64,000 nt of DNA from assembly GCF_001006325.2 (NCBI RefSeq), contig NZ_LBIA02000001.1, positions 1,551,501-1,615,500 of the forward strand. The letters are read 5' to 3'. Positions 19,246 to 39,185 of this stretch are shown in pieces. Within the stretch, counting starts at the first letter, position 1. Each line of letters begins with the position of its first letter. Under the pieces are notes generated by a model, which did no database searches, was not told the origin of the DNA, and saw only the letters and a program-made list of their open reading frames with translations. The translations under genes and the position numbers were made by a program. The stretch comes from Afipia massiliensis. GTDB taxonomy: Bacteria; Pseudomonadota; Alphaproteobacteria; Rhizobiales; Xanthobacteraceae.

Positions 19246-19935
19246 CTACCGCTTTCCAAAAATCGCCGAGCCGATGCGGACATGCGTTGCGCCGAGCTGG
19301 ATCGCGGTTTCGAAATCCGCGCTCATGCCCATCGACAGCAATTTGAGTCCGTTGCGCGCGGCGATCTTTGCAGTGAGCGCGAAGTGCGGTGCCGGTGGAT
19401 CCTCAACCGGCGGAATGCACATCAGTCCCGAAATCTGCAACCCGTAAACGTCACGGCAGCTTGCGATGAACGCATCGGCATCGGCCGGCGCGATTCCCGC
19501 CTTCTGCGGTTCTTCACCAGTGTTGAGTTGAACGAACAGCTCCGGATGCCGGTCTTGCTTAACGATTTCTTTCGCCAGCGCTTCGCACAGGCTGGCGCGG
19601 TCCACGGAGTGAATGGCATCGAACAACGCCACGGCCTCCTTGGCCTTGTTGGATTGCAGCGGCCCGATCAGGTGAAGCGCGAGGCCTTGATGTTTCTCTA
19701 TCAGAGCTGGCCACTTGGACTTTGCTTCCTGCACGCGATTTTCGCCGAACACGCGCTGGCCCGCATGAATTACCGGCTCAATGGCGCCGCCATCGAATGT
19801 CTTCGATACCGCCACAAGCGTCACCGAGGCGCGCTCGCGGCGCGCGTCGCGGCACGCGCGCGAAATTTCCAGCTCCACCGCGGCGAGCCCGCTTGGTGAA
19901 TCAGACGTTAGCGGCGGCACGTTATCCACAGCCAT
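19246..19935 (-). CDS. YggS/PLPBP-family pyridoxal phosphate homeostasis protein
   Basis: The 229-aa protein is a single-domain PLP-binding TIM barrel of the YggS/PROSC family. The PLP lysine is Lys45 in VAVSKTF, followed by FGENRVQEAKSKWP. HLIGPLQSNKAKEAV and the C-terminal phosphate-binding LSMGMSADFETAIQLGATHVRIG are also present. It buffers PLP and affects amino-acid and vitamin B6 balance rather than acting as an enzyme. Confidence 0.92.
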   Translation of the reverse strand: MAVDNVPPLTSDSPSGLAAVELEISRACRDARRERASVTLVAVSKTFDGGAIEPVIHAGQRVFGENRVQEAKSKWPALIEKHQGLALHLIGPLQSNKAKEAVALFDAIHSVDRASLCEALAKEIVKQDRHPELFVQLNTGEEPQKAGIAPADADAFIASCRDVYGLQISGLMCIPPVEDPPAPHFALTAKIAARNGLKLLSMGMSADFETAIQLGATHVRIGSAIFGKR

Positions 19936-26067: not shown

Positions 26068-26949
26068 TTACTTGCCCGCTTCGAGCCGCCGCAAAATCTC
26101 ATCGAGCTGATCGAGATCGGTATACTTGATCTGCACCGTGCCGCCCGGATTGCGGTGATCAACACTCACCCTCAGGCCAAGCACATCGCTGACGCGCTTT
26201 TCAAGTGCGATGGTGTCGGGGTCTTTCGCAGGCGCCGCGCCGCGCGCCTTCTGCGGCTTGCGCTCCGGCACACCTTCTTCGTGTGCGAGGGCTTCGGTCT
26301 GACGCACGTTCAGACCTTCCTCGACAATACGCTTCGCGGCCGCAGCGGCATCCGGCAGATTGATCAACGCCCGCGCGTGTCCGGCGGACAGCTTGCCTTC
26401 GGCGATATAAGCCTGAACCTGATCCGGCAGTTTGGTCAGACGCATCATGTTCGCGACATGGCTGCGGCTCTTGCCGACGATCTTGGCGATATCTTCCTGG
26501 CTGCGTTTGAACTCTGCGGCGAGCGCGTGATAGCCCTGCGCCTCTTCCATCGCGTTCAGGTCCGAGCGCTGCACGTTCTCGATGATCGCGATCTCGAGCG
26601 CGTCGCTATCGTTCACGTCCACAGTAACGACCGGCACATCATGTAAGCCAGCGCGCTGCGACGCGCGCCAGCGCCGTTCACCCGCGATGATTTCGAAACG
26701 ATCCGTCGCGCCCTTTACCGACCGCACCACGATCGGCTGAATCACGCCGTGCTGTTTGATCGAGGCCGACAGCTCGTCGAGCTCGGTATCGGAAAACGTG
26801 CGGCGCGGATTGCGCGGATTGGCTTTCAGAAATTCAATCGGAACGCGGCGCGGCGTGCGCGACGGGCGATCGACGTGAGCGGCTTCGCCGCCGACATCGC
26901 CAATCAGACTTGCAAGACCGCGACCCAATCGCGAACGCTCGTCGGCCAT
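26068..26949 (-). CDS. parB: chromosome partitioning protein ParB
   Basis: The 293-aa protein has the ParB CTPase domain with GERRWRA at residues 90-96, the ENVQRSDLNAMEEAQGY motif, a helix-turn-helix (EDIAKIVGKSRSHVANMMRL) that reads parS, and a C-terminal dimer domain. ParB loads at parS as a CTP-gated clamp and spreads to form the segregation complex moved by ParA. ATG 26949 follows AAGGGAGA and starts MADERSRLGRGLASLIGD; ten extra upstream codons are rejected. A palindromic repeat separates it from parA. Confidence 0.95.
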   Translation of the reverse strand: MADERSRLGRGLASLIGDVGGEAAHVDRPSRTPRRVPIEFLKANPRNPRRTFSDTELDELSASIKQHGVIQPIVVRSVKGATDRFEIIAGERRWRASQRAGLHDVPVVTVDVNDSDALEIAIIENVQRSDLNAMEEAQGYHALAAEFKRSQEDIAKIVGKSRSHVANMMRLTKLPDQVQAYIAEGKLSAGHARALINLPDAAAAAKRIVEEGLNVRQTEALAHEEGVPERKPQKARGAAPAKDPDTIALEKRVSDVLGLRVSVDHRNPGGTVQIKYTDLDQLDEILRRLEAGK

Positions 26950-27027
26950 TGCCGTCTCCCTTGCACTCAACCCACGCACTCCAGATCAACAATCTTAAGA
27001 CCGACGATCCGAAGACCGTCGCTGTTT

Positions 27028-27118: not shown

Positions 27119-27985
27119 TTAATGCGAACGCAGTTCGCGCTCGCGCTGAATCACTTCGGTCGCGAGTTTCAGATACGCATCGCTGCCGACGCATTTGAGA
27201 TCGTAAACCAGCACCGGCTTTCCGTAAGACGGCGCTTCGGAGATGCGCACGTTGCGCGGGATCATGGTGTTGTAGACTTTGTTGCCCATGAACTGGCGCA
27301 CATCGGCGACGACCTGATTCGACAGGTTGTTGCGCGAGTCGAACATCGTCAGCACGATGCCGTGAATCGACAGCGTCGGATTCAGCGTCGAGCGCACTTG
27401 CTCGACGGTCTGCAACAACTGCGACAGACCTTCGAGGGCGAAGAACTCACACTGCAGCGGCACGAGAATCGCGTGCGACGCCGCCATGGCGTTGACGGTG
27501 ATGAGGTTGAGCGACGGCGGACAATCGACCAGCACGTAGGTGTAGTCGGTGTCGGGCGCGACATTGACGTTGAGTTCGGCGATCGCATCGCGCAGACGAA
27601 ACGCGCGGTCGCGCGTGGTGCCGAGTTCAAGCTCAAGGCCCGACAGATCCATGGTCGATGCCGCGATGTGCAGGCGAGGGACCGCGGTCGGGATGATCGC
27701 CTCGCGCAGCTTGGCTTCGCCGATCAGCACGTCATAGGTCGAACAGTTGCGATTGCGCCGGTCGATGCCGAGGCCGGTCGATGCGTTGCCCTGCGGATCG
27801 AGATCGACGATCAGTACCCGCTCGCCAATGGCGGCGAGCGCGGTTCCGAGATTGATGGCGGTCGTGGTCTTGCCAACGCCGCCCTTCTGATTGGCGAGCG
27901 CCAGGATCCGGGGATGACCCCGTTGGGCTGTCGCGCCGGTCTCGTCTTGAAAAATTCCGTCGATGCCAACCATGTGCCTGGCCAT
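27119..27985 (-). CDS. parA: chromosome partitioning ATPase ParA
   Basis: The 288-aa protein is a Soj/ParA-type deviant Walker ATPase. The P-loop KGGVGKT is at residues 34-40, followed by LIVDLDPQGNAST and YVLVDCPPSLNLIT. It binds DNA as an ATP dimer and pulls ParB-parS complexes apart. It follows rsmG by 21 bases on the same strand. ATG 27973 is an alternative start four codons later. Large apparent open frames on the other strand here are codon-bias shadows. Confidence 0.95.
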   Translation of the reverse strand: MARHMVGIDGIFQDETGATAQRGHPRILALANQKGGVGKTTTAINLGTALAAIGERVLIVDLDPQGNASTGLGIDRRNRNCSTYDVLIGEAKLREAIIPTAVPRLHIAASTMDLSGLELELGTTRDRAFRLRDAIAELNVNVAPDTDYTYVLVDCPPSLNLITVNAMAASHAILVPLQCEFFALEGLSQLLQTVEQVRSTLNPTLSIHGIVLTMFDSRNNLSNQVVADVRQFMGNKVYNTMIPRNVRISEAPSYGKPVLVYDLKCVGSDAYLKLATEVIQRERELRSH

Positions 27986-28006: not shown

Positions 28007-28663
28007 TTATCGCCGCTCAATCGTATTGAGTTCGACGATCCAGCCGTGTCCGCCGGTGCGACTGGGATGAAGAAGAGGCTCTATCTTCCAGTATTTAGTA
28101 GCTTCCGTCAATTCAGCCTCTACATCTTGTCCCTTCAAGAACAAGACTTTGGTGCCTTGCTGCACCAGAGGTGCAGCAAAACCCAGCAACATATGTAGTG
28201 GAGCAACTGCGCGGGCAGTGATGCAATCGACCGGCGTCCGCAAGCTATCCACATAATCCCCGATGTCAGCGAGAACAACTGAGCCGGCGGCGCCGGTCAC
28301 CCGCAGCGCCTCACGCAGAAACGCGGCCTTCTTGGCGTTGCGCTCCACAAGCTGGACGGTTGCACCGTCATGCTCGGCCATCGCACAGGCCAGCACCACG
28401 CCGGGAAAGCCACCACCGCTGCCGAAGTCGAGCCAGCGCCGAGCGTTCGGAGCCAGATCCAGAAGCTGAAGCGAATCGGAGATGTGCCGGGTCCAGAGCT
28501 GCGGAAGCGTGGAGGGCGCAATCAGATTGGTCTTGGCCTGCCATTCGACCAGCAGGCTGACATAGCGATCGAGCCGCGCCCCTGTTTCACGTGAAACAGG
28601 GGTCAGCGCCAAGGCTGCCGCCTTATCCGAGGCCGGGATGGAAGCGAGGGCCGGTTTGGCCAT
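28007..28663 (-). CDS. rsmG: 16S rRNA (guanine-N7)-methyltransferase RsmG (GidB)
   Basis: The 218-aa SAM-dependent enzyme methylates G527 of 16S rRNA. The SAM loop is FGSGGGFPG at residues 80-88, and the TNLIAPSTLPQLWTRHISDS block identifies the family. Residues 23-27 (VSRET) are encoded by a perfect parS site, so the segregation signal is built into the gene. It sits between mnmG and parA in the classic mnmG-rsmG-parA-parB order. Confidence 0.94.
   Translation of the reverse strand: MAKPALASIPASDKAAALALTPVSRETGARLDRYVSLLVEWQAKTNLIAPSTLPQLWTRHISDSLQLLDLAPNARRWLDFGSGGGFPGVVLACAMAEHDGATVQLVERNAKKAAFLREALRVTGAAGSVVLADIGDYVDSLRTPVDCITARAVAPLHMLLGFAAPLVQQGTKVLFLKGQDVEAELTEATKYWKIEPLLHPSRTGGHGWIVELNTIERR
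28583..28598. promoter_or_regulatory. parS centromere site 1 (inside rsmG)
   Basis: TGTTTCACGTGAAACA is a perfect 16-bp match to the bacterial parS consensus. It lies in codons 22-27 of rsmG; flanking CCC and GGG extend the palindrome to CCCCTG...CAGGGG. It is about 1.6 kb from parB and 5.6 kb from the proposed origin gap. Confidence 0.96.
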
Positions 28664-28672
28664 GAGATGTGC

Positions 28673-30544
28673 CTATGCCGAAGCTGCGGAGGATCGGCGC
28701 GCCTCACGGCGCAGATAGGCCGCCAGAATGGCAAGCGCCGCCGGGGTCATGGCCTCGATCCGGCCCGCCTGCCCGATGGTCCGGGGCCGGACCGTCTCAA
28801 GCTTCTGACGAGCTTCATTCGAGAGGCCGGGGACGGCGCTGTAATCGACATCGGTCAGCACCAGCCCCTCGTCGCGACGGAATGCCTGCACGTCGGCAGC
28901 CTGACGGGCCAGATAGACGTCGTATTTGGCATCGATCTCCAGATGGACCGCGATCTTCGGATCAATTGCGTTGAGCTGCGGCCAGATCGACGTGATGCTG
29001 GCCCATTCCACCTCGGGATAGGCAAGCATTTCAAACGCGGTGCGGCGCTGACCGTCGTGGTTCAGCATCAGGCCGTGCTTTGCGGCCTCGTTGGGCGTCA
29101 CCGAGAGCGATTTTGCCAATGATTTCGCGGTATTAAGTGCACCCATCTTCGCGGCGTGGCGCCCTGCCCGCTCCGCGCCAACACAGCCGAGCGCGATACC
29201 CCGGTCGGTCAGGCGCTGATCGGCATTGTCCGCCCGAAGGGTCAAACGATACTCGGCCCGCGAGGTGAACATCCGATAGGGTTCGGTGATGCCGCGCGAC
29301 GTCAGGTCATCGATCATCACCCCGAGATAGCCGTCGGCGCGGTCGAACACGGCCGGCTCGCCGCGCCCGGCGAGAATCGCGGCATTCAATCCGGCCACCA
29401 ACCCCTGCGCGCCGGCTTCTTCATAGCCGGTGGTGCCATTGATCTGCCCGGCCAAGAAAAGTCCCGGCACCCGGCGGGTTTGCAGGGTCGGCTCCAGTTC
29501 GCGGGGATCAACGTGATCGTATTCGATGGCATAGCCCGGGCGGACCATTTTCACGCGCTCGAGGCCGGGAATGCTGGCCAGAATAGCCCGTTGGACTTCC
29601 TCCGGCAGCGAAGTGGAGATGCCGTTGGGATAAACGGTGGTGTCGTCGAGCCCTTCGGGCTCCAGAAAGATCTGGTGGCCGTCGCGGTCGCCGAAGCGGA
29701 CGATCTTGTCCTCGATCGAGGGGCAATAGCGCGGTCCGGAGCTCTTGATCTGGCCGGAATACATCGGCGAGCGATGGACATTGGCCCGGATGACATCGTG
29801 GGTCGCGTTGGTGGTCCGGGTGATACCGCATTCGATCTGTGGGGTCGTAATCCGGTCGGTCAGCACCGAGAACGGCTCGATCGGGTCGTCACCGGGCTGC
29901 ATTTCGACCGCGGACCAGTCGATGGTCGATCCATCGAGCCGTGGCGGGGTCCCGGTCTTGAGACGGCCCAGCGTAAAGCCGGCGCGCTCAAAAGACTTTG
30001 AAAGACCCATTGCCGGGGCCTCTCCGACCCGTCCGGCGGGCCAGTTCTTCTCCCCGAGATGGATCAGGCCGCGCAAAAAGGTCCCGGTGGTCACAACCAC
30101 CGCTCCAACGACGAATTCCCGGCCGTCAGCCAGACGAATCCCGCAAATCCGGCCCTCAGAGAGCAAAAGCTCGTCCGCCTCGCCCTCGATCACGGTCAGA
30201 TTAGGGGTATCCCGGATTTCGGCCTGCATCGCAGCCGCATAGAGCTTGCGGTCGATCTGGGCGCGGGGGCCGCGCACAGCTGGCCCCTTGCGCCGGTTCA
30301 AAACCCGGAACTGAATGCCGCCGCGATCCGCGATCCGGCCCATCAGGCCGTCCAGAGCGTCGATTTCCCTAACCAGATGGCCCTTTCCAAGGCCTCCGAT
30401 GGCTGGATTGCAGGACATCGCGCCGATGGTCGCGAATTGATGGGTGACCAGCGCTGTTTCCGCGCCCATGCGCGCGGAGGCCGCCGCGGCTTCGCAGCCG
30501 GCGTGGCCTCCTCCGATCACAATGACGTCGAATGTGGTCTGCAT
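28673..30544 (-). CDS. mnmG: tRNA uridine-5-carboxymethylaminomethyl enzyme MnmG (GidA)
   Basis: The 623-aa FAD enzyme, with MnmE, modifies U34 of several tRNAs. It starts [20 protein letters not shown], with the FAD loop at 9-16, and has the family motifs [19 protein letters not shown] and [19 protein letters not shown] 30544 is chosen because the FAD motif follows at once; the longer frame would read through the two parS sites. rsmG begins 9 bases after its stop. Confidence 0.95.
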
Positions 30545-30599
30545 CGGCAGACTTCTATCGCTTTGGTGCGAAAGCTGAAAGACGGAAATGAGTTCCGGA

Positions 30600-30615
30600 T
30601 GTTTCACGTGAAACA
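30600..30615. promoter_or_regulatory. parS centromere site 2 (mnmE-mnmG spacer)
   Basis: A perfect TGTTTCACGTGAAACA, 56 bases upstream of the mnmG start. It lies exactly 32 bp from site 3, about three helical turns, so two ParB dimers could load on the same face. Confidence 0.96.
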
Positions 30616-30631
30616 AACGCCAGATGGAACT

Positions 30632-30647
30632 TGTTTCACGTGAAACA
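30632..30647. promoter_or_regulatory. parS centromere site 3 (mnmE-mnmG spacer)
   Basis: The third perfect TGTTTCACGTGAAACA, in the 154-bp spacer between mnmE and mnmG, 52 bases past the mnmE stop. ParB bound here and at site 2 would also cover the region where an mnmG promoter would lie. Confidence 0.96.
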
Positions 30648-30698
30648 GCGTCATTGGCCCACTTGGAACCAGCTGCAGGCCAATGGCCTACTTTGCAC

Positions 30699-32027
30699 CT
30701 ATTTGCCGATGCAGAACTCTCGGAAGATGACGTCGAGGATGTCTTCGACATCCACCCGGCCCGTAAGCCGCCCCAACGAATGAATCGCGATTCGTAGTTC
30801 CTCGGCCAGAAGTTCGTCGCCCTTGTCGGCCGAGCGCCCTGCCCGCTCCAGCGCCGCGACAGTCTCCCGCAACAAGGTCCGGTGCCGGGCGCGGCTGACC
30901 AGCGCCATTTCGCCCGACCCGAAATAATCCCGGGCGTAGGTCACCAGCGCCGCCACCAATTCGGAGACGCCGTCACCGCGCGACGCAGAGATATCGAACT
31001 GCGCCCTCGCCGCGCCGTCGCCGCCGACCAGATCGACCTTGTTGCGCACGATCCAGACCGGCGCATGATCGCCTTCGTTTTTCAGCGGCAGCGCGCTGTT
31101 GTCGTTCGCATCGACAAGCCACAGCACCAGGTCGGATGTGCGCGCACGGTCGCGCGCACGGCGCACACCCTCCTGCTCGACCGGATCGTGGGTGTCGCGA
31201 ACGCCCGCGGTGTCGATCAGCGTCACCGGATAACCGTCGAGATCGAGATGCACTTCGATGACATCACGCGTGGTGCCGGCATGCGGCGACACAATCGCAG
31301 CGTCGCGCCGCGCCAGGCGGTTAAGCAGCGTCGACTTGCCGGCGTTCGGCGGACCGGCAATCGCAACCGTCAGGCCTTCGCGCAGACGTTCGCTTTGTGC
31401 CGATGAAATAAGGGTTTCTTCGATTTCGGATTTCAGCGCCGTGATCTTGCGCAACGCCGGTGCAACCAATTCAGTCGATACATCGCCCTCGTCCGAGAAA
31501 TCGATACCTGCTTCGATCAGCGCCGATGCTTCGATGATCCGCTGCCGCCAGCTCTCGGCCTTTGCGCCCAGCAAACCTTTGAGATGCCGCAGCGCCTGAC
31601 GGCGCTGACGATCGGTGTCGGCGTGAATCAGATCATCGAGACCTTCGGCTTCGGTGAGGTCAAGTTTGCCGTTCTCGAACGCACGTCTGGTAAATTCGCC
31701 GGGCTCCGCCGGACGCAAACCATCGATGGCGCCGAGCGCATCGAACATCGCGGTGATCACCGCGCGGCCGCCATGAACATGAAATTCCGCGACGTCTTCA
31801 CCGGTGGCGCTGTGCGGCCCCGGAAACCACAGCGTTACCGATTCGTCGAGTGCGCTGCCGTCGAGATCCCGCAGGGTCGCAAACTGGGCGAGACGAGGCG
31901 CAGGCAATTTTCCGCAAAGCCGCTCAACCGCTGTCCGGGTTTGCGGGCCGGACACACGGATAATGGCAATCGCTGACGGCGCACGGCCGGACGACAAAGC
32001 GAAGATGGTCTGGTCGGGTGAATGCAT
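30699..32027 (-). CDS. mnmE: tRNA modification GTPase MnmE (TrmE)
   Basis: The 442-aa protein has an N-terminal tetrahydrofolate-binding domain, a central G domain inserted in a helical domain (P-loop GPPNAGKST at 225-233, DTAG in [14 protein letters not shown]), and the C-terminal FCIGK signature with its essential cysteine (Cys439). It partners MnmG in wobble-uridine modification. Family length and ends are normal. Confidence 0.96.
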
Positions 32028-32269
32028 GGCCTATTTGTCGGACACATGCAGAACAGGCAATGAAAATTCCCAAGAGATCGTCATATCGCTTATGTTGCGC
32101 TGCAATATACTGCGACCCAGTGTGCAACATCCACGATATTGCATCGCACCAATTTTTAGGCGCGGAGGATTTGCGGCGCCTTCAAAAAAATACCCGGCAT
32201 CACCACGAAGACGCGCTTCGCACTGATGGCCGGGCATTAAAACGAGCTGACGCCTGTTGGCTGACCCGA

Positions 32270-33535
<1,266 letters not shown>

Positions 33536-33810
33536 TGGGGTTGTCCTGTGGAGCGTGTGGAGAAAAGAGTGGGGAGGGGAGCGAAAGGTTCAGCTTGCTG
33601 ACGACATACGGACTACAAACGCGATCAGAAGTCCGCAGGTCTTGAGCGAGGAAGGTGCCGGGAGGCTTCGAACCTGATGTAGCGGCCGGTCCAACAATGA
33701 GACCGGGACTCAACCACATCCGCCTGCGTTCGGTGGGATGACAGATATATAGAAAATCGTCCGGCTCCACGCAAGGCGATCATTAACGCAGAGCCTTGAG
33801 GTTTGCCGCT

Positions 33811-34233
33811 CTAAAACGGCTTGACGATGACCAGAATCACGATACCGACCATCAAAACCGTCGGTACTTCATTGATAATACGATAGAATTTCTGGTTTCT
33901 GGTATTCGCATCATTGGCGAAATCCCGCACCCGGGCTGCGAAAAATCCATGAACGCCCGACAGAATCAGCACCAGTGCGAATTTCGCGTGAAACCAGCCG
34001 GAAACATACCAGCCGCCCTGCCAAACCAGCCACAAACCAGCCAGCCAGGTCACGATCATCGCCGGATCGATGATGGCTCGGAGTAATCGCCGCTCCATCA
34101 CCTTGAAAGTTTCGGATTGCTTCGAGCCAACCTCGGCATCGCAGTGATAGACGAACAATCGCGGCAGATAGAGCATGCCGGCCATCCACGAGATGACCGC
34201 GATCACATGCAGCGCCTTGATCCATTCGTACAT
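33811..34233 (-). CDS. hemJ: HemJ-type protoporphyrinogen IX oxidase
   Basis: The 140-aa membrane protein has four hydrophobic helices and the family's conserved features: an early histidine in YEWIKALHVIAVISWMAGM, the LPRLFVYH block and GWFHAKFALVLILSGVHG. HemJ oxidises protoporphyrinogen IX to protoporphyrin IX, the penultimate step of heme synthesis, in bacteria lacking HemG and HemY. ATG 34233 gives the conserved start; a TTG 15 bases upstream is less likely. In Caulobacter this gene also lies near the replication origin, but with hemE in between. Confidence 0.88.
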   Translation of the reverse strand: MYEWIKALHVIAVISWMAGMLYLPRLFVYHCDAEVGSKQSETFKVMERRLLRAIIDPAMIVTWLAGLWLVWQGGWYVSGWFHAKFALVLILSGVHGFFAARVRDFANDANTRNQKFYRIINEVPTVLMVGIVILVIVKPF

Positions 34234-34771
34234 GGGAATAATCTTCAACTACCAATTTGTTGAACTGCTAAGCCAGTCAGTGTTTCGAGACTGACGCCTG
34301 CACGCGAAGACAGGAACCAAACGTTGCTCGGCGTGTTGAGCAACATCGCTAGATGACGCGAGAAGAGGTCTGTCCGCAAGCACCACTTGCTTAAAGAATC
34401 CTTTTAGATTCTTAAGTTTGAGTCAGTGTAACCGTGATTAGCGCTCGCGCATTTCTCTCCCGCATTTATCCAATGCTCGTCCACATGCCGCCGGTTTATA
34501 CCCGGTGTTGGATCGGACGAGCACGGCGGAAAATAAGCCGATGGTTTCAAGCGCTTGAGTGCAATGGGCGTGGCATTATCCCAAGACAAATCCACACAAC
34601 CCCGCTACCATCCCGGCAAAGGTCAAGATTTCATCCCGAAATCAGTGCTGTGAATGAAAGAGCGGGTTATCCCGGGCGGTGCTGTCCATCGCCGGATTGA
34701 GGTCAATATGCCCACAGGGATTCACAGCTATTCACAGTCGCCGGATTGAGCGGAAACGGATTCGAGACGCC
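34234..34771. other. candidate chromosomal replication origin (oriC)
   Basis: This 538-bp gene-free gap separates leftward and rightward gene blocks. DnaA-box-like sequences (consensus TTATNCACA) are CTATTCACA 34728-34736 and TGTGAATGA (reverse) 34649-34657, each 8/9. Boxes with 7/9 matches are at 34466-34474, 34576-34584, 34588-34596 and 34718-34726. Five GANTC (CcrM) sites lie at 34396, 34407, 34420, 34719 and 34759; the first three sit in an A+T-rich patch with inverted repeat AAGAATC/GATTCTT. The right flank (PPSR, maf, coaE, dnaQ, secB) resembles the side of Caulobacter Cori, and parS sites lie 4-6 kb away. No perfect TTATCCACA is present, which is the main weakness. Confidence 0.65.
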
Positions 34772-35614
34772 ATGGCGACAACCTCCGGCAGTTATTTTCA
34801 CCTCCACATGATTTCCGATTCGACTGGCGAGACGCTGATCACGGTCGCGCGCGCGGTGGCCGCGCAGTATTCCAACGTGTCGCCGGTGGAGCATGTCTAT
34901 CCGCTGGTCCGCAGTCAGAAGCAGCTCGATCGCGTGCTGGCGGAGATCGAGGAAGCCCCAGGAATCGTGCTGTTCACGTTGCTGGAGAAAGATCTGGTCG
35001 AGCGGCTCGAGGCGAAGTGCCAGGAAATCAACATTCCGAGCCTCTCGATCATCGGTCCGGTAATGCAGCTGTTTCAGGCCTATCTCGGTACGGAGACCTC
35101 CCGGCGCGTCGGCGCGCAGCACACTCTCAACGCCGAATATTTCAAGCGCATCGACGCGCTGAACTATTCGATGATGCACGACGACGGTCAGCATGTCGAA
35201 GGCCTCGAGGAGGCCGACGTGGTTCTTGTCGGCGTCTCACGGACATCGAAGACACCGACCTCGATCTATCTCGCCAATCGCGGCGTCCGTACCGCCAACG
35301 TACCGCTGGTGCCGGGAATCCCGATTCCGCATCAGCTTGAAACATTGAAAAAGCCGCTGGTGGTCAGCCTTCATGCCACGCCCGAGCGATTGATCCAGGT
35401 CAGGCAGAATCGCCTGCTCGGTATCGGCAGGACCGGGGACGATAACTATATCGATCGCCAGTCGGTGACCGAGGAAGTTGCGTTCGCACGCAAGCTGAGT
35501 GTGAAGTTCGACTGGGCGCTGCTCGATGTCACGCGCCGGTCGATTGAGGAAACCGCGGCAGCAATCATGAAGCTGTACGCCGATCGTCAGCGTCAGAAAG
35601 CACCGGAAACGTGA
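34772..35614 (+). CDS. pyruvate,phosphate dikinase/PEP synthase regulatory protein (PPSR, DUF299)
   Basis: The 280-aa bifunctional kinase/phosphorylase switches PPDK or PEP synthase off and on by ADP-dependent phosphorylation. It shows the [17 protein letters not shown] start and the P-loop GVSRTSKT at residues 154-161. ATG 34772 starts [19 protein letters not shown]; the longer frame has no conservation. It is the first gene right of the proposed origin. Its stop overlaps the GTG start of maf. Confidence 0.93.
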
Positions 35615-36219
35615 CTGTCTGGCGTGAGCGGCAATCCTTGATTCTTGCATCGCAAAGCGCTGTGCGCAAAAGCCTGCTTGCGAACGCGGGGATCGCGGTC
35701 GAGACGATCCCTGCCGACATCGACGAACGTGCGATCCAGCAGAACTCGGGATTGAAAGATCCGGGCGAGATCGCAGCCCTTCTCGCTTGCGAAAAAGCGA
35801 CGTTCATTTCTGCGAAATACCCTGATCGCTACGTCGTCGGCGCCGACCAGACGCTGGCGCTCGGCGATCAGCTTTTCAGCAAGCCCGCGGATCGCGCTGC
35901 CGCAGCGGCACAAATCACCACATTGTCCGGCCAGACTCACGCATTGCACAGCGCGGTTAGCGTCGTGAAAGATGGTGTGACGCTGTTTTCCCACGTCAGT
36001 GTTGCACGCATGACGATGCGCGCTCTTACTGGCAGCGAGATTGCGGCCTATGTCGATGAAGCGGGCGACGCCGTCACTGCAAGCGTCGGCGCCTATCAAC
36101 TGGAGCGCACCGGGGTGCATCTGTTCGATCGCATCGAGGGCGATCATTTTACAATTCTGGGATTGCCGCTGCTGCCGTTGCTTGCTTTTCTGCGCAGCCG
36201 GAATCTGCTGGCTGTATGA
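35611..36219 (+). CDS. Maf-family nucleotide pyrophosphatase
   Basis: The 202-aa protein has the Maf signature [19 protein letters not shown] at residues 9-27, the KA motif ([13 protein letters not shown]) and [12 protein letters not shown] with the catalytic aspartate. Maf proteins hydrolyse modified or non-canonical nucleoside triphosphates and are linked to septum control in Bacillus. The start is GTG 35611, overlapping the PPSR stop; its own stop overlaps the coaE ATG by 4 bases. A shikimate dehydrogenase gene often found between maf and coaE in relatives is absent. Confidence 0.92.
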
Positions 36220-36833
36220 CGAAAGAGTTGCCGATGCTGTTGCTGGGTTTGACGGGTTCGATCGGAATGGGGAAATCGACCACCGCGAAGCTGTTTCAGG
36301 AGGCCGGGGTGCCGGTCTACGACGCCGACGCCACCGTTCATAAGGTCTATGAGGGCGAGGCCGCGCCGGCCGTCGAAGCGGCGTTTCCCGGCAGCACCGT
36401 GGACGGCAAGGTGGACCGGCAGAAACTGTCGGCCATGGTTGTAAACAATGCCGATGCCATGAAGCAGCTCGAGACCATCGTGCATCCGATGCTGCGCAGC
36501 CATCAGCTCAAGTTTCTCAGCGATGCGGAAACATCCGGCGCGCCGGTGGCGGTGCTCGATGTTCCTTTGCTGTACGAGACCGGCGGCGAAAACCGGGTCG
36601 ATGCTGTGGTGGTGGTAACGACAACGCCGGAAATCCAGCGCGAACGCATCCTGGCGCGGGACAACATGACGCCTGAGAAGCTGGACGCCATTCTGGCGCG
36701 CCAGTTGCCCGACGCGGAAAAGCGCAAACGCGCGGATTTTGTGGTGGACACCTCCCACGGTCTGGACCCGGTGCGGCAGCGGATCGGTGAAATCCTCCGC
36801 GAAGTCGTTAAAATGCCGAGGCGGCGAAACTGA
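36216..36833 (+). CDS. coaE: dephospho-CoA kinase
   Basis: The 205-aa P-loop kinase completes CoA synthesis by phosphorylating the 3'-hydroxyl of dephospho-CoA. Walker [10 protein letters not shown] is at residues 14-22, followed by [14 protein letters not shown] and [23 protein letters not shown] overlaps the maf stop (ATGA). With coaA at 48188, the window holds both ends of the CoA pathway. Confidence 0.95.
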
Positions 36834-36863
36834 TTCGCTGACATCGCACCCGGCATACCCATC

Positions 36864-37559
36864 ATGCGCGAAATCGTTCTCGATACCGAAACCACAGGCC
36901 TCGATCCGCTGCGCGGCGATCGCCTGGTCGAGATCGGCTGCGTCGAGATGGTCAACCGGATGCCGACCGGGCAGACGTTTCACGTCTATCTCAATCCCGA
37001 GCGCGACATGCCGCAGGAAGCGTTCAATGTGCATGGCCTGTCGAGCGAGTTCCTTGCCGACAAGCCGCTGTTCGCGGCGGTGGCGGAAGATTTTCTGACA
37101 TTCATCGCGGACGCGCCGCTGGTCATCCACAATGCGTCGTTCGATATCGGCTTCATCAATGCGGAATTGACCAAGGTCTCGCGAGCGGCAATCCCGCGCG
37201 ACCGTCTGGTCGATACGCTGACGCTGGCCCGGCGCAAGCATCCCGGCGTGTCGAATCGGCTCGACGATCTGTGCTCGCGCTACGCCATCGATAATTCCCG
37301 CCGCACCAAGCACGGCGCGCTGCTCGACGCGGAACTGCTGGCGGAAGTCTATATCGATCTGATTGGCGCGCGGCAGTCGCAACTCATTCTGTCCGAAACG
37401 CGCCAGTCGTTCGGCGCCGGACAAGTCGATGCACCGCGCCGGCAGCGCGAGGTGCCGCTTGCGCCGCGCGTGACCGAGGCGGACACGGCCGCGCACGCCG
37501 CATTCGTCGCGACGCTCGGCGGCATGCCGATCTGGAACGAATTCACGAAAGAAGATTAA
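36864..37559 (+). CDS. dnaQ: DNA polymerase III epsilon subunit (proofreading exonuclease)
   Basis: The 231-aa DEDD-family 3'-5' exonuclease removes misincorporated bases in the replicase. Motif I is Asp7 and Glu9 in [11 protein letters not shown]. Motif II is in [16 protein letters not shown], and motif III includes [15 protein letters not shown]. It follows coaE by 30 bases in the same operon and converges on secB, with a hairpin between. Confidence 0.95.
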
Positions 37560-37580
37560 GCGAAGCGATTTTCGCTTCGC
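37560..37580. terminator. hairpin between convergent dnaQ and secB
   Basis: A perfect 9-bp stem, GCGAAGCGA with TCGCTTCGC and loop TTT, begins at the last base of the dnaQ stop codon and lies 16 bases past the secB stop. It lacks a T-tract and may serve both genes weakly. Confidence 0.5.
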
Positions 37581-37596
37581 GCAGCGATAACCGGGC

Positions 37597-38079
37597 TCAG
37601 CTCGGCTTGCCCTGCTGCTGCTCGGCCTGACGCGCCATGTTCTGGCGATAGAGGCCGACGAAATCCACCGGATCGAGCATCAGCGGCGGGAAGCCGCCGG
37701 CGCGCACCGACGACGCCACGATCTCGCGAGCGAACGGGAACAGCAGCCGCGGGCATTCGATCATGATGAACGGGTGCATGCTGTCCTGCGGTACGTTCTG
37801 AATGCGAAACACGCCAGCATAGATCAGTTCGAACGCAAACAGCACAAAGTTGTCGTTCTCGGCCTTGCCCTCGATGGACAGCGCGACCTCGAAGTCATGC
37901 TCGGCAACCGGAGTGGCGGTGACGTTGATCTGAATATTGATGGTGGGCTGCTTGTCCTGGTTGGCCAGCGACGCCGGGGAGTTCGGATTCTCGAACGAGA
38001 AATCCTTGATGTACTGCGCCAGAACGTTGAACTGGGGCGGAGCCGCGTTCTCGAGAGGTGCACCGTTGCCGTTGGTCAT
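37597..38079 (-). CDS. secB: protein-export chaperone SecB
   Basis: The 160-aa protein matches SecB along its whole length: [17 protein letters not shown] (about 22-38), [12 protein letters not shown], and [29 protein letters not shown] near the C-terminus. SecB tetramers hold unfolded preproteins and hand them to SecA. Its place after dnaQ is conserved in alphaproteobacteria. The upstream spacer to the Tim44-like gene is about 400 bp. Confidence 0.95.
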
Positions 38080-38483
38080 GAATATTCGCTCCGAGAATGT
38101 GGAAACGAGATCGCCCAGGGAGCGATCCGGTCGGGAACCGCCTGTGAAAAGGCATCCGTTGGCGGCGAAAGTCCGCGTTCGGACAGGACAGGCCCTTGTC
38201 GGGGCGAGTGGCTATCATAGCCTTGCCTCATTCGACAAGGACGATGGGCTGCATTCCGTTGTGTTTCGGCTGGCCCTGACCGCTGGATCGGGTAGAATTG
38301 CGCTAAATCGGCGCTATGAATGCCCCAAATCTCGTCTTAGGGCACCTCAAGCGCGGCATATAGCGATGTTGGCTGGATTGGATTTCGTGCCTACATGTGA
38401 CGGAACGAACGCCTCTGTGACCCCGTTTCAATCCGGGAAGCCGCGCGGGCGGCGTGCAGCACCGATCAGAAAGTGAATGCGAC
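38080..38483. other. spacer between divergent secB and Tim44-like genes
   Basis: The 404-bp region must contain the secB promoter (leftward) and the promoter of the Tim44-like gene (rightward). One open frame crosses it but has no plausible start or family resemblance. I see no terminator, repeat or RNA gene. In some relatives an fxsA membrane-protein gene lies here; it is absent. Confidence 0.4.
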
Positions 38484-39185
38484 GTGGATATTTACACCAT
38501 CATTTTTCTGGCCCTGGCGGTCTTCATCTTCTTGCGGTTGCGCAATGTGCTGGGGCAGCGGACCGGCGACGAGCGGCCGCCGTTCGATCGCGCGGCCCGT
38601 GATGTCCTGCGCGGAGCGCCGGACAACGTCGTGCCGATGCCGGGCAAGACCATCGATCAGGCGCCGCTGGCGCCGTCCGGGGACCCTGCCGTCGTGCCCG
38701 ATCGCTGGAAGGGAATCGCCGAATCCGGATCAGCGCTCGCGCTCGGTCTCGATCAGATCGCCGTCTCCGACCCGTCATTCGACGCGCAGCATTTCCTCAG
38801 CGGCGCGAAAAGCGCCTATGAGATGATCGTGCTGGCTTTTGCCAACGGTGATCGCCGCGCGCTGAAGGATCTGTTGTCGTCCGAGGTCTACGAAGGATTC
38901 GAGGCCGCGATCAAGGAACGCGAACAGCGCGGCGAACGGGTCGAGACGCGTTTCGCGTCGATCGACAAGGCCGAGATCGTCAATGCCGAAACGCGCGATC
39001 GCGCCGCTCAAATCACCATCCGGTTCGTGTCCCAGATGATCTCGGTGACGCGCGACAAGGCTGGCACCGTCGTCGATGGCAACGCGGAAAAGCTCACCGA
39101 TGTCACAGATGTCTGGACCTTTGCCCGTGACATCGCTTCGCGCGATCCGAACTGGAAGCTGGTTGGGACGGAAAGCGGACAATAA
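38484..39185 (+). CDS. Tim44-like domain protein
   Basis: The 233-aa protein has one N-terminal membrane helix (IYTIIFLALAVFIFLRL, residues 3-19), an unstructured Pro/Asp-rich stretch, then a Tim44-like domain (about 85-230) with HFLSGAKSAYEMIVLAFANG and a late VTDVWTFARDIASRDPNWKL. Bacterial TimA proteins are inner-membrane proteins related to mitochondrial Tim44. GTG 38484 places the helix at the N-terminus; another GTG 30 bases upstream is possible. It overlaps the proposed mltA start, so the two are translationally linked. Confidence 0.85.
   Translation: MDIYTIIFLALAVFIFLRLRNVLGQRTGDERPPFDRAARDVLRGAPDNVVPMPGKTIDQAPLAPSGDPAVVPDRWKGIAESGSALALGLDQIAVSDPSFDAQHFLSGAKSAYEMIVLAFANGDRRALKDLLSSEVYEGFEAAIKEREQRGERVETRFASIDKAEIVNAETRDRAAQITIRFVSQMISVTRDKAGTVVDGNAEKLTDVTDVWTFARDIASRDPNWKLVGTESGQ

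Follow-up and report, generated by a model that had tools for sequence, protein, structure and literature searches.

The 538-bp intergenic gap between hemJ and the gene for the PPDK/PEP synthase regulator (PPSR) is, with a probability that we put at about 0.92 from sequence comparison, the DnaA-dependent chromosomal replication origin (oriC) of Afipia massiliensis and a positional ortholog of Cori of Caulobacter. The gap lies in a stretch of 64,000 nucleotides (the window, whose numbering is used here), which corresponds to positions 1551501-1615500 of a genome closed in a single contig (4,495,198 bp). A first-pass annotation made from the letters had proposed this gap as the origin. The proposal is supported in silico by synteny, by the density of DnaA-box-like sites, by a candidate unwinding element and by the GC skew of inserted DNA.

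Start codons bound the gap on both sides: the hemJ ATG at 34233 (minus strand) and the PPSR ATG at 34772. As annotated, it is gene-free and parts a leftward from a rightward gene block; coordinates and gene directions agree. To the left, rho, mnmE, gidA, rsmG, parA and parB are all read leftward (mnmE and rsmG were named by eye, and the family matches of parA are below curated cut-offs). To the right, PPSR is followed by maf, coaE and dnaQ on the plus strand, with secB on the minus strand. These five genes had been named beforehand as neighbors of Caulobacter Cori and are all present in the window, maf with matches just under the curated cut-offs. The remark that no dnaA is nearby was also correct, the gene being at 1,341,607, about 244 kb to the left of the gap. 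A search of 30000-39000 gave no Rfam match at gathering scores. PPSR belongs to PF03618, which we take to be equivalent to COG1806.

Features of the candidate origin region of Afipia massiliensis (window positions; identity is mean column identity among relatives)
Feature	Coordinates	Strand	Remarks
parB	26068..26979	-	TIGR00180 over cut-off
parA-type ATPase gene beside parB	27119..27985	-	family matches below curated cut-offs
Third parS	28583..28598	.	near rsmG start (gene named by eye)
Two parS, TGTTTCACGTGAAACA	30600..30647 (30600-30615, 30632-30647)	.	mnmE-gidA junction; where the Ori-Finder family motif would point
hemJ	33811..34233	-	left border of gap; TIGR00701 over cut-off
oriC (candidate)	34234..34771, 538 bp	.	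intergenic, hemJ to PPSR
DnaA-box-like CTGTCCGCA	34370..34378	+	2 mismatches; identity 0.77
Candidate DNA unwinding element	34387..34431	.	least stable 45-mer; GANTC at 34396, 34407, 34420
DnaA-box-like TCGTCCACA	34477..34485	+	1 mismatch; identity 0.74; TTGTTCACA in several relatives
DnaA-box-like TTATCCCAA	34576..34584	+	2 mismatches; identity 0.70
DnaA-box-like AAATCCACA	34588..34596	+	2 mismatches; identity 0.89, highest of boxes
DnaA-box-like TCATTCACA	34649..34657	-	1 mismatch; identity 0.79; relatives have TTGTTCACA or TTCTTCACA
DnaA-box-like ATGCCCACA	34708..34716	+	2 mismatches; identity 0.70
DnaA-box-like GGATTCACA	34718..34726	+	2 mismatches; identity 0.83; overlaps GANTC at 34719
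DnaA-box-like CTATTCACA	34728..34736	+	1 mismatch; identity 0.57
PPSR (PPDK/PEP synthase regulator)	34772..35614	+	PF03618; right border, as at Cori

The arrangement of the gap is constant in the family loci compared. Family loci were taken as the best 80 of 139 by PPSR; two of the 80 have no left flank, and in all 78 that remain hemJ and PPSR flank a gap of 420-623 bp. These 78 loci, from the best 80 of 139, come from Afipia, Bradyrhizobium, Rhodopseudomonas, Tardiphaga, Nitrobacter and other relatives. We take this family to be the Nitrobacteraceae, called Bradyrhizobiaceae in older papers; it includes soybean symbionts and phototrophs. By its DNA as a whole, the gap can be recognised in 24 of the 25 genus genomes compared, among them its own, and in none of 16 genomes that represent other families of the order.

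Outside the family we compared 20 class-level loci, chosen for long contigs from 100 PPSR-positive genomes of 144 (44 were without a match), and 10 order-level loci out of 13 matches in 16 genomes. The PPSR-side gap is adjoined by hemE in 19/20 and 9/10 of these, respectively. At class level hemJ lies further left in 18/20, and the order rho, hemJ, hemE, gap, PPSR is found within 6 kb in 16/20; at order level all nine hemE-bordered loci also have rho and hemJ. Combined, hemE is at the gap in 28 of 30 loci and hemJ further left in 27 of 30. The presence of hemE at the gap outside the family and of hemJ within it means that the family lost hemE from the origin flank. In the Afipia massiliensis genome hemE now stands at 71694-72698 of the contig, outside the window and about 1.5 Mb from the gap. 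In one class-level locus (L184, genome G123) rho is directly left of the PPSR gap, and neither hemE nor hemJ was found in the stretch.

In Caulobacter crescentus, Cori lies between hemE and COG1806 (PMC1914354). The same PPSR-side gap is found here, and it is thus the positional ortholog of Cori. Both have PPSR/COG1806 as the right neighbor, an AT-rich element, and DnaA boxes weaker than the usual consensus (a figure legend calls two of the Cori boxes strong and five weak), and in other alphaproteobacteria the hemE-hemJ side is likewise on the left. They differ in that hemJ borders the Afipia gap, where hemE is not adjacent, having moved to 71,694. They also differ in the CtrA boxes, of which five full copies are described for Cori (PMC8959179) and none within one mismatch occurs in the Afipia gap.

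DnaA-box-like sites were scored against TT[AG]T[CT]CACA with at most one or at most two mismatches. The gap has three sites at the stricter threshold, compared with 0.375 in dinucleotide shuffles (6/1000 reach three), and ten sites at the looser one, compared with 4.1 (8/1000 reach ten). Among 21,310 overlapping windows from 1.084 Mb, the densest with up to two mismatches is at 34451 (13 sites, partly inside PPSR) and the densest with up to one is at 34201 (four sites). A cluster of DnaA boxes above chance is thus present, as in Cori, and all of its boxes are weak. The two box-like sequences that the first-pass annotation rated best, CTATTCACA at 34728 and TGTGAATGA at 34649, were both recovered there. 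The best-kept boxes are AAATCCACA (34588), GGATTCACA (34718), TCATTCACA (34649) and CTGTCCGCA (34370), then TCGTCCACA (34477); CTATTCACA (34728) is less conserved.

The expectation that the box-like sequences would be kept in related genomes was borne out. Column conservation averages 0.718 for seven chosen boxes and 0.677 for all ten, against a gap mean of 0.449. Random placements reach these values in 0.00055 (seven boxes) and 0.0003 (ten boxes) of draws; for draws confined to the conserved stretch the fractions are 0.005 and 0.013. The 78 related gaps (from the best 80 of 139 loci) together hold 169 sites with at most one mismatch where 22.7 are expected, every one of them is above its own shuffled mean at two mismatches, and 46 of the 78 contain TT[AG]T[CT]CACA exactly. 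A perfect TTATCCACA is found in none of these 78 gaps (best 80 of 139 loci) and, as had been noted, is also missing from the gap of the window, which speaks against the oriC reading. Judged by their letters, the putative boxes of the gap are conserved but weak. The window's only perfect TTATCCACA (19922-19930) is some 14 kb away from the origin, where a gene identified by eye as YggS-like (19246-19935) starts. In the 1500 bp ahead of the matched domain of dnaA, part of which is coding, there are no boxes with at most one mismatch.

The least stable 45-mer of the gap is the candidate unwinding element, in which the three GANTC sites are spaced 11 and 13 bp apart. An AT-rich element beside boxes is what a DnaA-dependent oriC has; the melting itself is predicted. 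Against the oriC reading, this 45-mer ranks only 25th among 2008 windows of the genome sample, 24 of which are less stable. Its position is well kept: in each of the 79 gaps compared (the window and 78 relatives from the best 80 of 139 loci), the least stable 45-mer begins 250-450 bp upstream of PPSR.

The five GANTC sites reported for the gap were all found (34396, 34407, 34420, 34719 and 34759). Five in one gap is not significant alone, since 108/1000 shuffles reach this number, unlike the clustering of GANTC in the unwinding stretch across relatives, which is significant. Among the 79 gaps (best 80 of 139 loci), the least stable 45-mer has at least one GANTC in 78 and at least two in 70, where shuffled 45-mers give 8.8 and 0.36; 68 of the gaps have two sites spaced 12-14 bp apart (2% by chance). 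The 79 gaps are related and these counts are therefore not independent. Of the 100 least stable 45-mers among the 2008 genome windows, 20 have GANTC and three have at least two.

GANTC in the unwinding element is also frequent outside the family. It occurs in 7/9 order-level gaps (L216-L221 and L224), against 0.84 in shuffles, and in 10/19 class-level gaps (L168, L175-L181, L183 and L187), against 2.1; none of 2000 shuffle sets reaches either count. L225 (PPSR 33% identical) and L184 were excluded from this count as hemE is missing, and the class-level 10/19 holds one near-duplicate, L179 and L181, which are assigned to one family, sharing the same 45-mer. The form GANTCTT is present in the least stable 45-mer of 5/9 order-level and 6/19 class-level gaps.

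The inverted repeat at 34394-34413 is present as annotated, but it is not a conserved feature: a repeat with 7-bp arms is found in only 19/79 gaps, and in the alignment the right arm is better kept than the left. We rejected it as a functional hairpin for this reason. The CtrA site TTAA-N7-TTAA does not occur within one mismatch in the window gap and is exact in 1/79 gaps. TTAACCAT is likewise missing from the window gap within one mismatch. CtrA control as in Cori was rejected because full sites are missing. Averaged over the 79 gaps, CtrA sites with one mismatch number 0.48 per gap where shuffles give 0.21, and some relatives may therefore have weak sites. For IHF, the window gap has three one-mismatch sites; over the 79 gaps there are 0.67 per gap, against 0.25 shuffled, and an exact motif in 3/79. 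A DnaA-trio of at least four consecutive WAR triplets is found in 0/79 gaps, and at least two TAR triplets are found in 25/79, against 38 in shuffles.

GC skew was calculated for 40 evenly spaced stretches of 20 kb and for a contiguous 364 kb around the window. Over the 40 stretches, cumulative skew is lowest at 1.568-1.68 Mb and highest at 3.81-3.92 Mb; the gap itself falls at 1.586 Mb, with 3.83 Mb as its antipodal point. At a resolution of about 10 kb, the skew check suggested in the first-pass annotation thus puts the chromosome-wide minimum in the window and the maximum at the antipode; at this resolution the gap lies at the skew minimum of the replicon, where a DnaA-dependent oriC is expected. 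The fine-scale minimum, at 31802, falls between the parS pair (1.2 kb to its left) and the gap (2.4 kb to its right). Between about 24 and 37 kb of the window the curve is flat, and a fit with two slopes has its break at 23.5 kb. As the fine minimum lies on this flat stretch, skew places the origin in the window and cannot alone pick the gap, and skew alone was rejected as a judge between parS and the gap because the curve is too flat. Across the genus the minimum falls 1.9-4.8 kb to the left of PPSR in 14/15 genomes; the nearest parS is closer to the raw local minimum than the gap in 9/15, and the gap is closer in 6/15. Mean skew is positive in the two bins that span -3 to -1 kb and consist mostly of rho, against the left-replichore sign. 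We think that the leftward offset of the per-genome minima is due to the composition of rho. An E. coli-type dif, as a terminus marker, had no match with three mismatches, a result that is uninformative.

A different origin has been predicted for this family. Ori-Finder placed the Bradyrhizobiaceae origin beside gidA in 2008, with TGTTTCACG as the "DnaA box" (PMC2275245), a motif chosen because the predicted gidA-adjacent origins contain TGTTTCACGTGAAACA. The motif was reused for Oligotropha carboxidovorans (PMC3091675), served to place the origin in an assembly of B. diazoefficiens (PMC4840208) and is one of three in a survey of Rhodobacteraceae (PMC6699656). Transferred to Afipia, this prediction would put the origin at the gidA-adjacent parS cluster (30600-30647) and would leave the gap as a mere divergent promoter region. 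It comes within about 4 kb of the gap and has the same skew switch, but it marks parS, in a stretch without DnaA-box-like sites.

The motif TGTTTCACG is half of parS, which suggests that it marks a ParB site rather than an origin. The three perfect parS palindromes are the only copies in the genome, and all of them are in the window, 3.6-5.7 kb left of the gap. A parS is defined by the 16-bp palindrome TGTTTCACGTGAAACA together with a ParB of the parS type whose gene is close by, and the site at 30600-30647 has both. The encoded ParB aligns over 11-258 with the ParB of PDB 6t1f, which we take to be the Caulobacter protein. By eye in this alignment, the equivalents of Caulobacter R173 and G201 are kept, and a lysine is at the position of A184. 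R at 173 and G at 201 go with binding of parS rather than NBS, and K at 184, as in Noc, is permissive for NBS (PMC7383237). The best NCBIfam score of this ParB is to the Noc model, below its cut-off. Of the 69 loci (among the best 80 of 139) with at least 4.6 kb of left flank, 53 have one or more perfect parS on that side of the gap and 16 have none there.

We consider an origin at parS very unlikely. It is a published proposal that covers ten genomes (PMC2275245) and was reused for Oligotropha carboxidovorans and B. diazoefficiens. The local skew minimum is also nearer to parS than to the gap (1.2 against 2.4 kb), as in 9/15 genomes of the genus. Against it, the palindrome is parS, with three genome copies, all in the window, and a ParB that keeps both parS-type residues, and 538 bp around the parS pair contain no DnaA-box-like site with up to two mismatches. 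Domain IV of DnaA keeps GGRDHTTVLHA, the E. coli contact motif in structure 1J1V, presumably that of E. coli DnaA. TGTTTCACG is present in 0/79 gaps (best 80 of 139 loci), and 17 of its 23 copies in 1.084 Mb are outside parS. In 15 genomes of the genus the nearest parS is 4.1 to 13 kb from PPSR, while the order hemJ-gap-PPSR is fixed. Where parS is at least 6 kb away, the skew minimum is still nearer the gap in 5/6 genomes; it therefore does not move with parS. DNA inserted between rho and mnmE, which lies between the gap and parS, has a pooled GC skew of -0.031 over 28,014 bp (negative in 9/11 genomes and slightly positive in two, one genome contributing a third of the bases). This is the left-replichore sign; an origin at parS would put these inserts on the right replichore, and the skew thus favors the gap. 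A reading of the gap as no more than a divergent promoter region, its conserved blocks being hemJ and PPSR promoters and regulator sites, seems to us even less probable. Its genes are divergent, conservation alone cannot distinguish the two cases, and some elements may well be promoters. However, three things are not expected of a housekeeping promoter pair: such a density of DnaA boxes, the recurrence in other families of the same PPSR-side gap, with boxes or with a stretch of low stability, and an unwinding element that holds GANTC in 78/79 gaps (best 80 of 139 loci).

Read as the origin, the gap suggests a sequence of events, all of which we infer from its anatomy. DnaA, made 244 kb away, would bind the weak boxes spaced over the right-hand two thirds (34466-34736) and would melt the AT-rich element on the left side (34387-34431). 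At Cori, filling by DnaA has been argued likewise for the G- and W-boxes, which are weak as well (PMC4468827). Two forks would leave the melted element, one in each direction, and the newly copied parS, 3.6-5.7 kb to the left, would then be picked up by ParB and ParA. Firing would leave the GANTC sites of the melted element hemimethylated until CcrM acts.

It is possible, although we hold it only tentatively, that alphaproteobacterial origins in general have a CcrM-methylated unwinding element, in which hemimethylation alters melting or protein binding and blocks refiring until CcrM acts. The genome encodes GcrA and a RAMA-domain protein, a domain that we assume to be carried by CcrM. We give somewhat better than even odds to a reading in which the gap is the origin, the GANTC sites of its unwinding element only accompany a different conserved motif (for instance GANTCTTAG, recognized by an unknown factor), and initiation does not depend on methylation. 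Within this family GANTC does lie in a longer conserved word, 9/19 class-level and 2/9 order-level origins are without GANTC in the element, and PMC11514494 discusses an effect of CcrM for the RepC-dependent ori2 of Agrobacterium, not for a DnaA-dependent origin. On the other side, GANTC recurs in other families with different surrounding letters, at the 7/9 and 10/19 given above against 0.84 and 2.1 shuffled, and the genome has the RAMA-domain protein and GcrA. The 13-mers GATCTNTTNTTTT of E. coli oriC (PMC1914354) also have methylation sites about 13 bp apart inside the unwinding element. The sites are GATC (Dam) there and GANTC (CcrM) in the Afipia gap; this is an analogy, and no homology is claimed. 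If methylation does act in this way, the tandem GANTC about 13 bp apart in this family would be a convergent counterpart of the GATC-bearing 13-mers, and GANTC methylation would replace CtrA in the family, full CtrA sites being nearly absent from the gaps.

The position itself is not new, as it was proposed in 2011. The USDA6 genome paper placed the origin of Bradyrhizobium japonicum USDA6 and USDA110 between bll0636 and blr0637 from GC skew (PMC3927601). That interval is very likely the same hemJ-PPSR gap, because the orientation fits and hemJ-PPSR is found in 78/78 loci (best 80 of 139). Both are divergent gene pairs at the GC-skew shift with a conserved intergenic sequence. The proposal has no element map, and boxes, unwinding element and parS are absent from that section of the paper (PMC3927601). 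By contrast, the element map, the correction concerning parS and the unwinding element with its GANTC sites look new in the literature searched, which was mostly open-access. Among the papers listed there, none names the Ori-Finder motif as parS, and none describes GANTC sites within the unwinding element of an alphaproteobacterial origin that depends on DnaA.

The result is a precise, testable origin map for the family of Afipia. It also bears on Ori-Finder, a predictor used in hundreds of genome reports, whose family-specific "DnaA box" appears to be a ParB site and has been used in published origin calls. Methylation sites built into the melting element offer an idea for the refiring block in alphaproteobacteria without full CtrA sites at the origin. 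One genome of the genus (G020, loci L206-L207) has a 9-kb rho-mnmE insert, 2.5-11.7 kb left of PPSR, and its parS is 13 kb from PPSR. With the two candidates about 12.5 kb apart, it is a natural strain for telling parS and the gap apart.
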